Notes under the pieces: model-generated
Databases searched by the model: none
Seen by the model: only the letters and a program-made list of their open reading frames with translations
What the model was told of the DNA's origin: nothing
Shown here: positions 60,416 through 64,000 of the stretch, piece by piece
How positions within the stretch are numbered: position 1 is the stretch's first letter
Layout: every line of letters begins with the position of its first letter
Assembly: GCA_018241505.1 (NCBI GenBank)
Contig: JAFEDS010000001.1
Location: 78,592-142,591, forward strand
Source: Pseudomonadota bacterium
GTDB taxonomy: Bacteria; Pseudomonadota; Gammaproteobacteria; Steroidobacterales; Steroidobacteraceae
Reading direction: 5' to 3'
DNA: 64,000 bases
Translations under genes and position numbers: made by a program

Positions 60416-60667
60416 TTACGTATCCAGAAACGCGATGATCGCCCGTTCTTTCTCTGGAGTGACTTGCTTGAATCGCTCGAGCACATAGAGGCTCTGCCCT
60501 GACGATCCGCGGTCGAGGGTCAAATGAAATATGACGCTATTCGGCAGATTCGAGTCCTTGGAATTCGCGTTGAGCAATTCGAGCGCCCGCTTCATGTAGG
60601 CTGGCAAATAGAACAGCCAGTTCGTCGGAGTTGCATGTGACAGAGGACAGTTGTCCGTAGGCTGCAT
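60416..60667 (-). CDS. Short unrecognised protein, possibly truncated
   Basis: 83 residues from the ATG giving MQPTDNCPLSHATPTNWLFYLPAYM; a longer frame of 106 residues begins at 60736. NWLFYLPAYMKRALELL and VIFHLTLDRGSSG, ending KQVTPEKERAIIAFLDT, resemble the C-terminal portion of small DUF6714-like proteins, but similarity is weak by eye. It might be a truncated gene at an island edge. Its start lies about 40 bases from the divergent antitoxin gene with the palindrome 60688-60703 between. Confidence 0.4.
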   Translation of the reverse strand: MQPTDNCPLSHATPTNWLFYLPAYMKRALELLNANSKDSNLPNSVIFHLTLDRGSSGQSLYVLERFKQVTPEKERAIIAFLDT

Positions 60668-60687
60668 TGCGCGAATTGATCTACGCT

Positions 60688-60703
60688 CATTACCCTGGTA
60701 ATG
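60688..60703. promoter_or_regulatory. 16-bp palindrome before the antitoxin gene
   Basis: CATTACC-CT-GGTAATG is a perfect dyad ending 5 bases before the antitoxin start. AbrB/VapB-type antitoxins commonly bind such dyads for autorepression; it is the likely operator. Confidence 0.6.
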
Positions 60704-60707
60704 TAAA

Positions 60708-60971
60708 ATGATGACAATCGCAAAATCCAAGCTCACGGCTCAGGGGCAAATTTCCGTACCGGCGGAGATTCGCCAGCGTCTGGGCGTCGGGCCCGGGTCC
60801 GTTTTGGAGTGGGACGAGCAAGACGATCAGGTGGTCGTGCGCCGAGCAGGGCGGTACAGCTCAGAAGAGGTACACAGTGCGCTCTTCCCAGGGGGCCATC
60901 CCCCACCGCCTCCGGAAGATACGAAAGAGGCGATTCGAAAATACATCCGTAAAAAGCATGCACGCCGTTGA
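60708..60971 (+). CDS. vapB: AbrB/MazE-fold antitoxin (VapB-like)
   Basis: 87 residues, starting at paired ATGs. N-terminal swapped-hairpin fold MTIAKSKLTAQGQISVPAEIRQRLGVGPGSVLEWDEQDDQVVVRRA (SpoVT/AbrB DNA-binding motif). The C-terminal tail is Pro-rich (GGHPPPPPEDTKEAIRKYIRKKHARR) and should wrap the toxin. Overlaps the PIN gene by 14 bases, the usual antitoxin-first order. Operator palindrome lies just upstream. Confidence 0.88.
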   Translation: MMTIAKSKLTAQGQISVPAEIRQRLGVGPGSVLEWDEQDDQVVVRRAGRYSSEEVHSALFPGGHPPPPPEDTKEAIRKYIRKKHARR

Positions 60972-61341
60972 TACAAACGTTCTGGTCCGGCTGTTGGTTC
61001 GTGACGATCTCGATCAGGTGAAAACGGCGGAGTCTTTCATAGCTCCAGGAGCATGGGTGTCCCATTTGGTGTTGGCGGAGGCGCTGTGGGTACTCGACTC
61101 AGTGTATGACCGGACCGCGGAGCAAATCGCTTTAGCTGTCGATCGGCTCCTGAACCACAAAGAGCTGACGATCCAGGATGCCGAGGTTGTCACCTATGCG
61201 TTGACACACTTTAAGAAACGTCCTGCGTTGGGATTCTCCGGTTGTCTGTTGCTAGAGATCGCGCGCAAGGCCGGACACTTGCCTCTCGGCACCTTTGATC
61301 GCAATCTGTCGAAGCTCGACGGTACAAAGCGTCTCGAATGA
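60958..61341 (+). CDS. vapC: PIN-domain toxin (VapC-like) with altered catalytic site
   Basis: 127 residues from the ATG overlapping vapB. PIN fold with Asp5 in MHAVDTNVLVRLL, Glu41 in LVLAEALWVL, and Asp114 in GTFDRNLSKL. The third acidic residue, normally FADC-type (Asp), reads GFSGCLL here, so Gly95 replaces it; a single base change (GAT to GGT) would explain this. PIN ribonucleases need these acids to hold Mg, so the toxin may be weak or dead. VapC toxins normally cleave initiator tRNA or rRNA. Confidence 0.85.
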   Translation: MHAVDTNVLVRLLVRDDLDQVKTAESFIAPGAWVSHLVLAEALWVLDSVYDRTAEQIALAVDRLLNHKELTIQDAEVVTYALTHFKKRPALGFSGCLLLEIARKAGHLPLGTFDRNLSKLDGTKRLE

Positions 61342-61357
61342 CGCTACAGCGAGCGGG

Positions 61358-61380
61358 TGCTACGACGAGCCTTCGTAGCA
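61358..61380. repeat. 8-bp-stem inverted repeat containing GTAGCA
   Basis: TGCTACGA (61358-61365) and TCGTAGCA (61373-61380) are exact arms with a 7-base loop, next to further GTAGCA copies at 61376-61381 and 61385-61391. May be a terminator-like end of vapBC or an integrase-binding site. Confidence 0.45.
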
Positions 61381-61555
61381 TTTCGGTAGCATCGGCCGTA
61401 GGGCTACCGCGTCGCATCCTGACAGGCGTTTATCCGACCGGCGTCGCCAACTCCATTAGAATCAGCGCCATGCAAACGCATTCGTCCAACTCAATGTTGG
61501 TCGGTCCAGTGCGTGGCAGTGCCGACAGTTAATGGAAAACGGCAATCGAATCAGT

Positions 61556-61666
61556 ATGTTAGACCGCAGAATCTCCGTGGCCCCCATGATGGACTGGACA
61601 CAGTCAAAAACGGCGTTAAAACCAATAACTTACGAACGTCGGGAAATCGTAGTAGCTTTTTGGTAG
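61556..61666 (+). pseudogene. dusA: dusA 5' fragment, candidate integration (att) site of a genomic island
   Basis: From ATG 61556 the reading MLDRRISVAPMMDWT is the invariant N-terminus of tRNA-dihydrouridine synthase A; the normal continuation (DRH...) is replaced by QSKTALKPITYERREIVVAFW and a stop at 61664. The 5' end of dusA is a well-known integration hotspot for prophages and islands, with the crossover within the codons for APMMDWT (about 61580-61600). The fragment therefore marks the left att; the element should extend to the right and an intact dusA copy lie beyond the window. Confidence 0.75.
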
Positions 61667-61700
61667 CACCCATTTTCGGCTAATTGTCCCGCTGTAGCCG

Positions 61701-61749
61701 CCGATGAAAACGTAGACAGGAAGTGTAGAGCTGTGTACGATTTCATCGG
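61701..61749. promoter_or_regulatory. Inverted repeat at the AbiEi start, candidate autorepression site
   Basis: CCGATGAAA (61701-61709) and TTTCATCGG (61741-61749) are perfect 9-bp arms 31 bases apart; the right arm ends on the first base of the GTG start. AbiEi antitoxins are known to repress their own operon by binding inverted repeats upstream. Confidence 0.55.
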
Positions 61750-62345
61750 TGAACCGAAAAGTCAGCATTCCAGACCGGGCAGGTCTTCCCTCAGTCTTTA
61801 CCTATAGCAAGGCGAGGGCAGCCGGCATGTCGGCTGAGCGGCTTTATACCTACCGGAACGAGGGTTTGATCGATCAAATCGGGCGGGGGCTCTATCGTTG
61901 GGCCGACGCTCCCGAGGTCGATCAGGATCTATTGGAAGCCGCTTACCGTGTTCCGCGGGCTACCCTCTGCTTGGGTACCGCGTTGGCGCGCCACGGACTG
62001 AGCGATGCCATCCCTGATCGGCTCGACATTGCGATACCCCGCGGCAGCCGAGTAGCAGCGCTGCGGCCAATCGTCGCTATCCACGTTTTTGCCAAAAAAT
62101 CATTCGATCTTGGTCGTGACGAATTGGCAGTCGGAGACGGAATATCCATCGGGTTGTATTCGGCCGAGCGCTCTCTCGTGGACGTCATCCGTCTACGGCA
62201 CCGGGAAGGTTCCGATGTCGCATGGGAAGCTCTGCGTAAATGGTTGCGCCGTAAAGGTTCGAAGCCAGCGGCACTGTTGGCAATGGCAAAGCATTTTCAC
62301 GGCGCGGAAGCTGCCGTCAGGAACGCATTCGAAGTTGTCCTCTGA
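61749..62345 (+). CDS. abiEi: AbiEi-family type IV antitoxin
   Basis: 198 residues from a GTG; no ATG is available in frame and no good RBS is seen, so the start is uncertain. N-terminal winged HTH (LPSVFTYSKARAAGMSAERLYTYRNEGLIDQIGRGLYRWAD) matches AbiEi; the C-terminal domain (YSAERSLVDVIRLRHREGSDVAWEALRKWLRRKGSKPAALLAMAKHF) is the AbiEi C-terminal domain. It neutralises AbiEii and represses the operon. ATG of abiEii overlaps its stop by one base (TGATG). Confidence 0.88.
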   Translation: MNRKVSIPDRAGLPSVFTYSKARAAGMSAERLYTYRNEGLIDQIGRGLYRWADAPEVDQDLLEAAYRVPRATLCLGTALARHGLSDAIPDRLDIAIPRGSRVAALRPIVAIHVFAKKSFDLGRDELAVGDGISIGLYSAERSLVDVIRLRHREGSDVAWEALRKWLRRKGSKPAALLAMAKHFHGAEAAVRNAFEVVL

Positions 62346-63229
62346 TGCGCGCTACCAAGGAAACCACAGCAGGGCGCAAGTACCTCGAGCTGCAACGGGA
62401 AGCACGGCGCACAAATCGCCCCACCGATGAGCTGATTCAATTTTACGCGCTGGAGTGCTTTCTTGACCGGCTGGCCCGCTCTGAGTTTTCTGCGAATTTC
62501 GTGTTGAAAGGCGGCGTGCTTCTTGCGGCGCTGAACGCCCGAAGACCAACTCGCGACATCGACTTTTCAGCGCGAGCCATCGACAATGACACGGATGCAG
62601 TTTTACGGCTGGTCCGACGGATTGCCGCCGTTTCGCTCGATGATGGTATGGAGTTCCATGCGGCAGATGCCACTGCGGAGACCATCCGCGACGAGGAGGA
62701 ATATAGCGGAGTACGTGTTACGCTCTCCGGCACTCTGTCGCGCGCGTCCGTGCGGCTCCATGTCGATGTCAATGTGGGGGATCCGATCTGGCCCGAGCCA
62801 CAAGACATCACGTTGACACGGCTGCTGGATGGGAAGCTTTCTGTCCGTGGGTACCCACTGGAAATGGTTCTGGCTGAGAAAATAGTCACCGCAATTGCCC
62901 GGGGTACTGCGAGCACCCGATGGCGTGACTTCGTTGACATCTACTCTCTGGTGCAACGGCATGCCGTCGATGGTCCAACCATGAAAGAGTCCATGAGGAT
63001 TGTGGCGAGGCATCGTGACGTGACTCCATCACCTCTAGAGACTGTCCTCGAGGGCTACGAGGCAATCGCGCAGTCACGTTGGCTTGCATGGCTGAGAAAG
63101 CAAAGACTTGAGACAGTGATCCCAAATGAGTTTGCGGAGGTTCTTCGTACGGTCGAGATGTTTTCCGACCCCGTGATTTCCGGGGCCGCCATCCAGTCAT
63201 GGAATCCGGCAACGTGCCAATGGAGCTGA
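62345..63229 (+). CDS. abiEii: AbiEii-family nucleotidyltransferase toxin
   Basis: 294 residues. Motifs of the DUF1814/AbiEii fold: FVLKGGVLLAALNARRPTRDIDFSARA (KGG about 55-57; Asp71, Asp73 metal-binding), then MVLAEKIVTAIARGTASTRWRDFVDIYSLV (about 180-205). AbiEii toxins add nucleotides to tRNA or other targets and give abortive-infection phage defence with AbiEi. All core residues are visible and it looks intact. Third gene follows overlapping. Confidence 0.9.
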   Translation: MRATKETTAGRKYLELQREARRTNRPTDELIQFYALECFLDRLARSEFSANFVLKGGVLLAALNARRPTRDIDFSARAIDNDTDAVLRLVRRIAAVSLDDGMEFHAADATAETIRDEEEYSGVRVTLSGTLSRASVRLHVDVNVGDPIWPEPQDITLTRLLDGKLSVRGYPLEMVLAEKIVTAIARGTASTRWRDFVDIYSLVQRHAVDGPTMKESMRIVARHRDVTPSPLETVLEGYEAIAQSRWLAWLRKQRLETVIPNEFAEVLRTVEMFSDPVISGAAIQSWNPATCQWS

Positions 63230-63864
63230 AAGGAGATAACTCGGCAGTGCCGTTGAATCATGCTTCAGTCTTCTGGTCCTGGTTCGTAGCCAACGAGCAT
63301 CTGTATCGTGACATCGAAGTGCGGGAGAAGGAGCAGTTGCTCGAAAACCTTCTCGGGCGCTTACAAACCTTTTGTGCCCAATTATGGTTTGAGATCGGCG
63401 GCGGGTTGACTGGACCGCGCGAGCTGGTGATCACTGCGGAGGGTCGTGTGGAAGCTTTCCCGCTGCTACTCGAGCTCACCAGGGCCGCTCCCGAGATAAC
63501 GGGCTGGCAGGTGGTCGCATTCAAACAGCCACAGGGTTTCGACTTCGTCACTCATTACGAAGATATTGTCGTGGCACCTGCGGCCACTTGGTTTTTGCCG
63601 CTTTTCGCCGAGAAAGATCCCGGGTCGCTCGGGTTGCGCATTGCGTTTGCCCACTTCGAACAAAAAAAGAAGCGACAATTTCTTGCCGCTGCCCATGTCA
63701 TGCTCGAGGCAGGGCTCGGTGAACTGGCGGCCGCGCAGGAAGTCGATCACGTTGAAGTATGTCAGGCGCCTTCGTCACCTGAAGGGTCCGGCTACCGCAT
63801 TCTGCGATCTCTTCGTGAATATTTGAACGGCAGAAGCCGGATGTTTGAAGGCGGCTCGGTCTGA
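63199..63864 (+). CDS. Unrecognised protein in the AbiE locus (FWSWF family)
   Basis: 221 residues from ATG 63199, or 214 from ATG 63220; either overlaps the AbiEii stop by 31 or 10 bases. N-terminal ASVFWSWFVANEHLYRDI and LVITAEGRVEAFPLLLELTRAAPEITGWQVVAF are of a recurring but unnamed family I associate with hypothetical proteins, sometimes beside toxin or immunity genes. No signal peptide or TM. Overlap indicates it is translated as third member of the AbiE operon; could be accessory or cargo. Function unknown. Confidence 0.75.
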   Translation: MESGNVPMELKGDNSAVPLNHASVFWSWFVANEHLYRDIEVREKEQLLENLLGRLQTFCAQLWFEIGGGLTGPRELVITAEGRVEAFPLLLELTRAAPEITGWQVVAFKQPQGFDFVTHYEDIVVAPAATWFLPLFAEKDPGSLGLRIAFAHFEQKKKRQFLAAAHVMLEAGLGELAAAQEVDHVEVCQAPSSPEGSGYRILRSLREYLNGRSRMFEGGSV

Positions 63865-64000
63865 TCGCGCGCAGGGTCTAGCAACATCAACACCAGCGTG
63901 CTGGAGAACTTTTGCTCGGTCTCCGCCATCGGAAACGTGTCGCTTAGATGTAATTACCGGCAATTTGCAGCAATATTGCAGGATTTCCTCGTAAGGACCC
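63865..64000. other. Right edge of window without a supported gene
   Basis: 136 bases after the FWSWF-family gene. A minus-strand 62-residue frame here is a shadow. No terminator or integrase fragment could be made out. Confidence 0.5.

Follow-up and report, generated by a model that had tools for sequence, protein, structure and literature searches.

A dusA attachment scar, probably a tandem junction, beside an AbiE toxin-antitoxin pair in a Steroidobacteraceae genome

The window, the whole stretch of DNA that was analysed (64,000 nucleotides), corresponds to G000:C11:78592-142591 in a metagenome-assembled genome of 7.88 Mb (46 contigs, 93.9% complete, 5.67% contamination). Contig C11 stops at the right edge of the window, 2.4 kb past a short open reading frame that begins like dusA. 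On the left of this frame lies a vapBC-like pair, and on its right an abiEi-abiEii pair followed by a further ORF (ORF221). The coordinates are collected in Table 1, in which element B designates the element proposed to run rightward from 61583, and element A a putative older one on its left.

Table 1. Features of the window around the dusA remnant, followed by units that lie between direct copies of the core in related genomes (for these the length is given)
Feature	Location or length	Strand	Remarks
vapB-like antitoxin, MazE/AbrB domain	60708..60971	+	Pfam PF04014; putative element A cargo
vapC-like PIN toxin, open frame	60958..61341	+	Pfam PF01850; putative element A cargo
Right arm-type repeat pair of putative older element A (GTAGCATTTCGGTAGCA)	61375..61391	+	-208 from core
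dusA 5'-end remnant ORF, 36 aa, MLDRRISVAPMMDWT...	61556..61666	+	DusA N-terminus by comparison with C24 and relatives
Attachment core CCCATGATGGACTGGAC	61583..61599	+	Same 17 bp at C24:213-229 within intact dusA; insertions of relatives break here
Left arm-type repeat pair of element B (GTAGCTTTTTGGTAGCA)	61652..61668	+	+69 from core
abiEi, type IV antitoxin, first cargo gene	61749..62345	+	Pfam PF13338; PADLOC AbiEi
abiEii, nucleotidyltransferase toxin	62345..63229	+	Pfam PF08843; PADLOC AbiEii
ORF221, 221 aa, probable element B cargo	63199..63864	+	No family match
Array unit G031	1,167 bp		VapBC pair
Array unit G051	1,244 bp		AbrB-like protein (by eye) and DUF6036 nucleotidyltransferase
Array unit G052	2,165 bp		AAA/DUF4143 protein; opens with its own dusA core (one mismatch)
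Array unit G025 (read as L118)	4,567 bp		PemK-type toxin and 208-aa tyrosine recombinase
Array unit G026	11,215 bp		Truncated P0001 relative without Pfam domain match

The reading frame of the remnant starts at the ATG at 61556, continues through MLDRRISVAPMMDWT and 21 unrelated residues, and closes with a TAG ending at 61666. It has exactly the coordinates and the 36 codons given in the initial annotation, in which it was described as a DusA start that diverges and stops. A second in-frame ATG is present upstream, at 61532. The core CCCATGATGGACTGGAC has its sole exact match in the window at 61583-61599, and three matches are found when up to three mismatches are allowed (0.53 expected). In the whole assembly, the 16-bp pattern CCATGATGGACTGGAC has two exact matches, namely the remnant and the intact dusA start on contig C24. 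That the 5' end of dusA is a known attachment site of integrases, as had also been stated, agrees with the account of dusA-specific islands by Farrugia et al. (2015, PMC4482086), which insert at a conserved site of ~21 bp in this part of the gene. As described there, the old 5' end is left at the outer boundary of the island, a new dusA start is supplied, and the integrase lies beside dusA.

Matches to Dus proteins in the assembly comprise an open DusA on C24, a DusB-like protein on C44 (judged by eye), and a weak match on C22. The C24 gene (C24:129-1313, 394 aa) scores above the DusA equivalog cut-off. Its start differs from the window remnant and its frame stays open, and the new start was presumably supplied by an element. 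On this contig 212 bp precede the core, and over 17 bp the core is identical to that of the window. On the minus strand, C24:1-35 encodes MAHILARKMKS, the first 11 codons of a divergent integrase-like gene, the ATG of which lies 177 bp before the core, at the same spot as the integrase starts in G014 and G026 (187 bp in G067). When right ends were clustered, the 5' side of C24 grouped with 13 other dusA starts from relatives. By this grouping and the integrase-like start at 177 bp, C24 carries the right end of a dusA-specific element; the gene cut by the contig edge is presumably a tyrosine integrase. Of the tyrosine integrase expected under the initial annotation, only this 11-codon start was recovered, and the searches of the assembly yielded no complete gene of its type. 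None of the 13 tyrosine-recombinase matches in the assembly is on C11 or C24, phmmer with the G067 integrase (P0001) found no relative in the G000 loci searched, and a search of the G000 genome for P0001-type integrases, run without a positive control genome, returned nothing.

Some side observations concern dusA itself. The G000 DusA (L003, C24 ~609-731) carries a low-complexity insertion of ~40 residues that is skipped in the alignments of relatives. A second, more distant DusA-like gene lies ~41 kb from dusA in G031:C53 and 25 kb from it in G055:C201, on the same strand, and in G052:C354 two DusA matches are 13.6 kb apart.

The two copies of the core thus stand on different contigs, C11 and C24, and no read or contig joins them. 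Element B cannot be traced rightward from the window, because C11 ends at the window edge, and the last 201 bases of C11 have no second copy anywhere in the assembly. The second core and the intact dusA that were anticipated to the right of the remnant do both exist, on C24, the placement of which beyond C11 is presumptive. C11 and C24 appear to carry the two ends of one element.

Further evidence is provided by the arm-type repeats. The arm motif GTAGCNNTTNGGTAGCA is built of two GTxyC units spaced by 11 bp. The window has two copies of it, at 61375 and 61652, where 0.01 would be expected. The form CGTAGCNNTTYGGTAGCA, with at most one mismatch, has four copies in the whole assembly, of which two are in the window and the others at C24:66 and on C21, and the control gave 0. 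The arms at 61652 and C24:67 are alike (GTAGC..GGTAGCA) and unlike those of the relatives in the set described next, as would be expected for the two ends of one element. In 43 stretches from G000 and 36 relatives (636 kb), arm pairs with identical halves number 21 on the plus strand and 1 on the minus strand. Sixteen of the 21 stand at +69, +72, +73, -146 or -208 from a core. Among the remaining five, that of G068 stands at -146 relative to a core that has two mismatches, that of G043 at +72 relative to what looks by eye like a core in heavy decay, and three fit none of the offsets. The offset of 69 in the window departs from that of all other left arms in this set, which is 72-73. From their position and repeat form, these repeats are probably arm sites bound by the integrase. 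Because the pairs stand at fixed offsets, 61583 may be taken as the left end of one element, probably abutting an older right end, and the core at 61583-61599 is almost certainly attL of a dusA-targeting element, that is, element B.

By gene content, AbiEi beside AbiEii in the 2.4 kb of element B within the window is an AbiE type IV toxin-antitoxin system. The AbiE pair and the unknown gene of the initial annotation were both recovered, the former by Pfam and PADLOC, and the latter, ORF221, as a protein with no Pfam, PADLOC or NCBIfam match at the thresholds used. The suggestion of a possible defence island extends, at present, to the AbiE pair and one ORF of no known family: AbiE alone was matched by PADLOC among the five window proteins scanned. 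In G068, which belongs to another genus of the family, an AbiE pair 66% identical is preceded by a dusA core in decay, the arm of which is at +73; a further scar lies at 61935 between AbiE and dusA, and an open dusA is found 32 kb downstream of the first scar. An AbiEii gene also stands just after a dusA scar in L132. AbiE is not tied to the dusA site, however, since the examined flanks of AbiE in G005 and G022, and of another copy in G068, hold no dusA remnant.

With at most one mismatch, the core is present in 48 of the 58 genomes of the genus (the window's own included), and in 8 of the 58 a single contig bears two to three cores in direct array (in four of these eight, cores with one mismatch are counted). 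The ten intervals between cores are 353, 1,020, 1,167, 1,244, 1,270, 2,165, 4,567, 6,261, 11,215 and 15,653 bp, and the contents of five are listed in Table 1. One ORF of each of the 1,020- and 1,270-bp units was examined and gave no Pfam match. The P0001 search, which covered nine of the ten intervals (all save that of G025), found no intact relative. In G067, of another genus, a 14.5-kb element has an intact integrase adjoining dusA. In two Pseudomonas loci, L145 (Pseudomonas sp. GM41) and L146 (P. gingeri), a dusA scar is followed by an intact dusA 3.0 and 5.7 kb on, respectively, and no match to a tyrosine integrase family is found in the 3 and 4 ORFs searched.

Toxin-antitoxin families are seen near dusA elsewhere in the genus as well. 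The 87 ORFs lying at most 1.5 kb before dusA in 32 of the 58 genomes (35 were listed, of which one was left out as too short and two had no locus) include matches to BrnA (3), BrnT (2), MazE (2) and CopG (2), and single matches to ParE, PIN, DUF6036 and Phd, where one ORF may match two families; 12 other families (transposase and cold-shock among them) are matched once each. None of the eight families named first was found in 42 control ORFs, taken from 17 of these genomes at 8.1-9.5 kb upstream, in a comparison of small sets in which kin genomes are not independent and some windows are shorter.

The direct arrays of cores bring up the alternative that further tandem cassettes lie between C11 and C24, the AbiE stretch being a small cassette that ends just past the window. 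Besides the arrays of relatives, this is favored by the stretch 63851-63937, which is 78% identical to DNA ~280-363 bp before the intact dusA of G038; from this likeness, the end of the AbiE unit may be just beyond the window. The likeness of the arms at 61652 and C24:67 to each other, and their difference from those of the relatives, point the other way. An intervening cassette is a serious possibility, though the smaller one.

On the left side of the core, the initial annotation described the VapBC pair as damaged. Both frames are open, however, with a MazE/AbrB domain in one and a near full-length PIN domain in the other; what stands of the description is that one acidic residue of the G031 relative is absent from the PIN protein in the alignment, at a position that presumably matters. 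The pair (60708-61341) is 72.6% identical to that of G031 over 631 bp. In G031 the pair is alone between two dusA cores ~1.2 kb apart, beside the intact dusA. As the dusA genes of the two genomes diverge by a similar amount (71-74% identity), the vapBC pair may be inherited at the dusA locus. The DNA between vapC and the remnant gives no alignment with G031. A DUF6714 fragment on the minus strand (60416-60736), which lacks the first 64 profile positions, abuts vapB, and suggests a truncation at about 60650.

It may be argued that the DNA to the left of the core is simply the native promoter and start of dusA, with vapBC as an ordinary neighbor and element B inserted alone. To the left of vapBC, where a left end of element A would be looked for, neither the window nor the rest of C11 shows a core or an arm motif. 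In addition, a motif like the right arm (at most two mismatches) is found 205-210 bp before the intact dusA in G055, G045, G035, G052 and G036, as a native promoter motif would be, being exact in G052 alone and having one or two mismatches in the other four. In G052, however, this -208 motif lies within the 2,165-bp stretch that has its own core, and has a left arm of like type, at +73 (one mismatch), as its partner. Moreover, the related vapBC of G031 has cores on both sides, and the arm motif is a feature of elements elsewhere. A single insertion is rather unlikely. In the clustering of right ends, that of the window is a singleton. Stacking on an older end does occur, because the remnant in G026 is preceded by an integrase-type right end, as at intact dusA starts, with a piece of an integrase.

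The tandem arrangement is to be preferred. In the window, the left neighbor of the core appears to be an older insertion; the remnant is probably the right end of an earlier element rather than the native dusA start, and the site at 61583-61599 has probably been used at least twice. The junction is thus read, with good though not complete confidence, as tandem, element B standing on an older, vapBC-bearing element A. Of the island junction that the initial annotation had placed here, the attachment scar stands, and its attribution to the native dusA start probably does not. An inverted repeat, TCGGTCCAGT...ACTGGACCGA, is present ~70 bp before the core in several relatives of the -208 class and echoes the right half of the core; the window keeps only half of it, at 61500-61526.

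Pairs of relatives with and without an insert allow the break point to be located. In L111 (G046), an AbrB/DUF6036 pair lies directly before the intact dusA. In L098 (G051), the same kind of pair is followed by a dusA remnant, 6,261 bp, and the intact dusA. On the left, the two are 75% identical over 983 bp and, after a skip of ~120 bp present in L111 only, 91% over 140 bp; this homology stops 4 bases past the core, and on the right the two align again from the core onward, with 81% over 1,004 bp. The 6,261-bp segment entered at the core, in a dusA start that was already part of a toxin-antitoxin-bearing unit. The comparison with relatives lacking the insert, which had been put forward as a check, favors integration, with homology reaching the core on both sides. 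The same before/after pattern is seen in L078 (G040), with a 353-bp insert.

The combination of core and arm is also found well outside the genus. In public genomes, a core followed by 48-60 bp and an arm occurs in 49 stretches (50 matches). The gap is exactly 56 bp in 35 of the 50 and 53-58 bp in 48, and in 45 both halves of the arm match each other, although the pattern left that free. A DusA start is on the left in 39, absent in 10, and cut in 1. Pseudomonas, Steroidobacteraceae, Caballeronia, Duganella and Rhodobacteraceae are among the hosts. In viral contigs, 25 stretches were found, 16 of them with the 56-bp gap. The gap of the window, 52 bp, is off this main peak.

With C11 ending 2.4 kb past the remnant and the assembly slightly contaminated, the remnant might also be regarded as a fragment of dusA that was duplicated or recombined, or as a chimera at the contig end, without any site-specific integration, but this is strongly disfavored and very improbable, given the arm repeats at fixed distances, the recurrence of such scars in public genomes (where 39 of the 50 matches read as a DusA start), and the before/after pairs that break at the core. 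The claim of a dusA-targeting junction, with an element running rightward from 61583, is upheld by the second identical core at the intact dusA, the arms, and relatives in which a scar is followed by an intact dusA, as well as by these pairs.

The best explanation, held with considerable confidence, is a history of two elements at the dusA attachment site, with the C24 dusA as the far end. The older element A (right end ~61342-61583, with vapBC at 60708-61341) would have inserted at the dusA 5' end and supplied a new dusA start. The dusA-specific element B would then have recombined into this rebuilt start at the 17-bp core, leaving the truncated dusA start of the window as attL, with AbiEi-AbiEii carried beside it. 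The attR of B would again have rebuilt dusA, giving the intact gene at the left edge of C24 with the divergent tyrosine integrase alongside.

Much of this history has published parallels. The window shares with the islands of PMC4482086 the site in the dusA 5' end, the old start at the boundary, and a Gammaproteobacterial host. In contrast to those islands, the boundary in the window is apparently the end of an older element; the word 'tandem' is absent from the main text of that paper. SGI1-related elements at dusA in Vibrio are reported with tandem insertion, toxin-antitoxin systems and AbiEii-type cargo (PMC8409611); these are large mobilizable islands, whereas element B is known from 2.4 kb in the window. 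In the accretion described for CIMEs (PMC5704250), a decayed element keeps attL and attR, and a new element inserts into attR. This three-step history fits G031, G051, G043 and the window, with the differences that insertion here is into the 5' end of a protein-coding gene and that some units hold only one toxin-antitoxin pair. Prophages at dusA are also known (PMC11630473). In these sources, dusA-specific elements, tandem insertion, toxin-antitoxin and AbiEii cargo, and CIME-like accretion are already published, and the window is a well-supported further case.

The short units are a different matter. All 94 islands of PMC4482086 have an integrase, the smallest island being 4,758 bp, while no integrase match is seen in some of the stretches of 1.0-2.2 kb in relatives, and the literature searched gave no description of arrays of integrase-less 1-2 kb units at dusA. 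Such units may be mobile in trans, or may be dead scars left by deletion. It is tentatively suggested, as a reading of the sequences that is doubtful at present, that in this Steroidobacteraceae genus the dusA 5' end is a one-way, cassette-collecting locus for integrase-less units of ~1.0-2.2 kb, the integrases acting in trans. Each unit would consist of two attachment ends and one toxin-antitoxin or similar module, every insertion would rebuild dusA and bury the previous unit as a stable scar, and the vapBC and AbiE stretches of the window would be two consecutive units. If the small units can move in trans, toxin-antitoxin and defence genes would be gathered at dusA as in a natural gene-capture array, with dusA restored at every insertion, and the evolution of the start of a tRNA-modification gene would be linked to the build-up of such modules.

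The pair of core and arm at a fixed distance is a sharper signature for dusA scars in fragmented metagenome assemblies, and is useful where contig breaks cost the integrase, as in C24, G050 and G014.

One site with this signature lies outside dusA. On C21 (G000:C21:3990-4078, L029, minus strand), a one-mismatch core is accompanied by a window-like arm. As a candidate for the other end of element B it was discarded, since what lies upstream of it is not dusA, and no similarity to the element in the window was seen at the DNA level. The DNA immediately upstream of the site, with BrnT/BrnA-like genes (by eye), is 73% identical to that directly before the intact dusA of G001. Sites of the form CCAATGATGGACTGGAC, resembling that on C21, are also present in G050 and G038.
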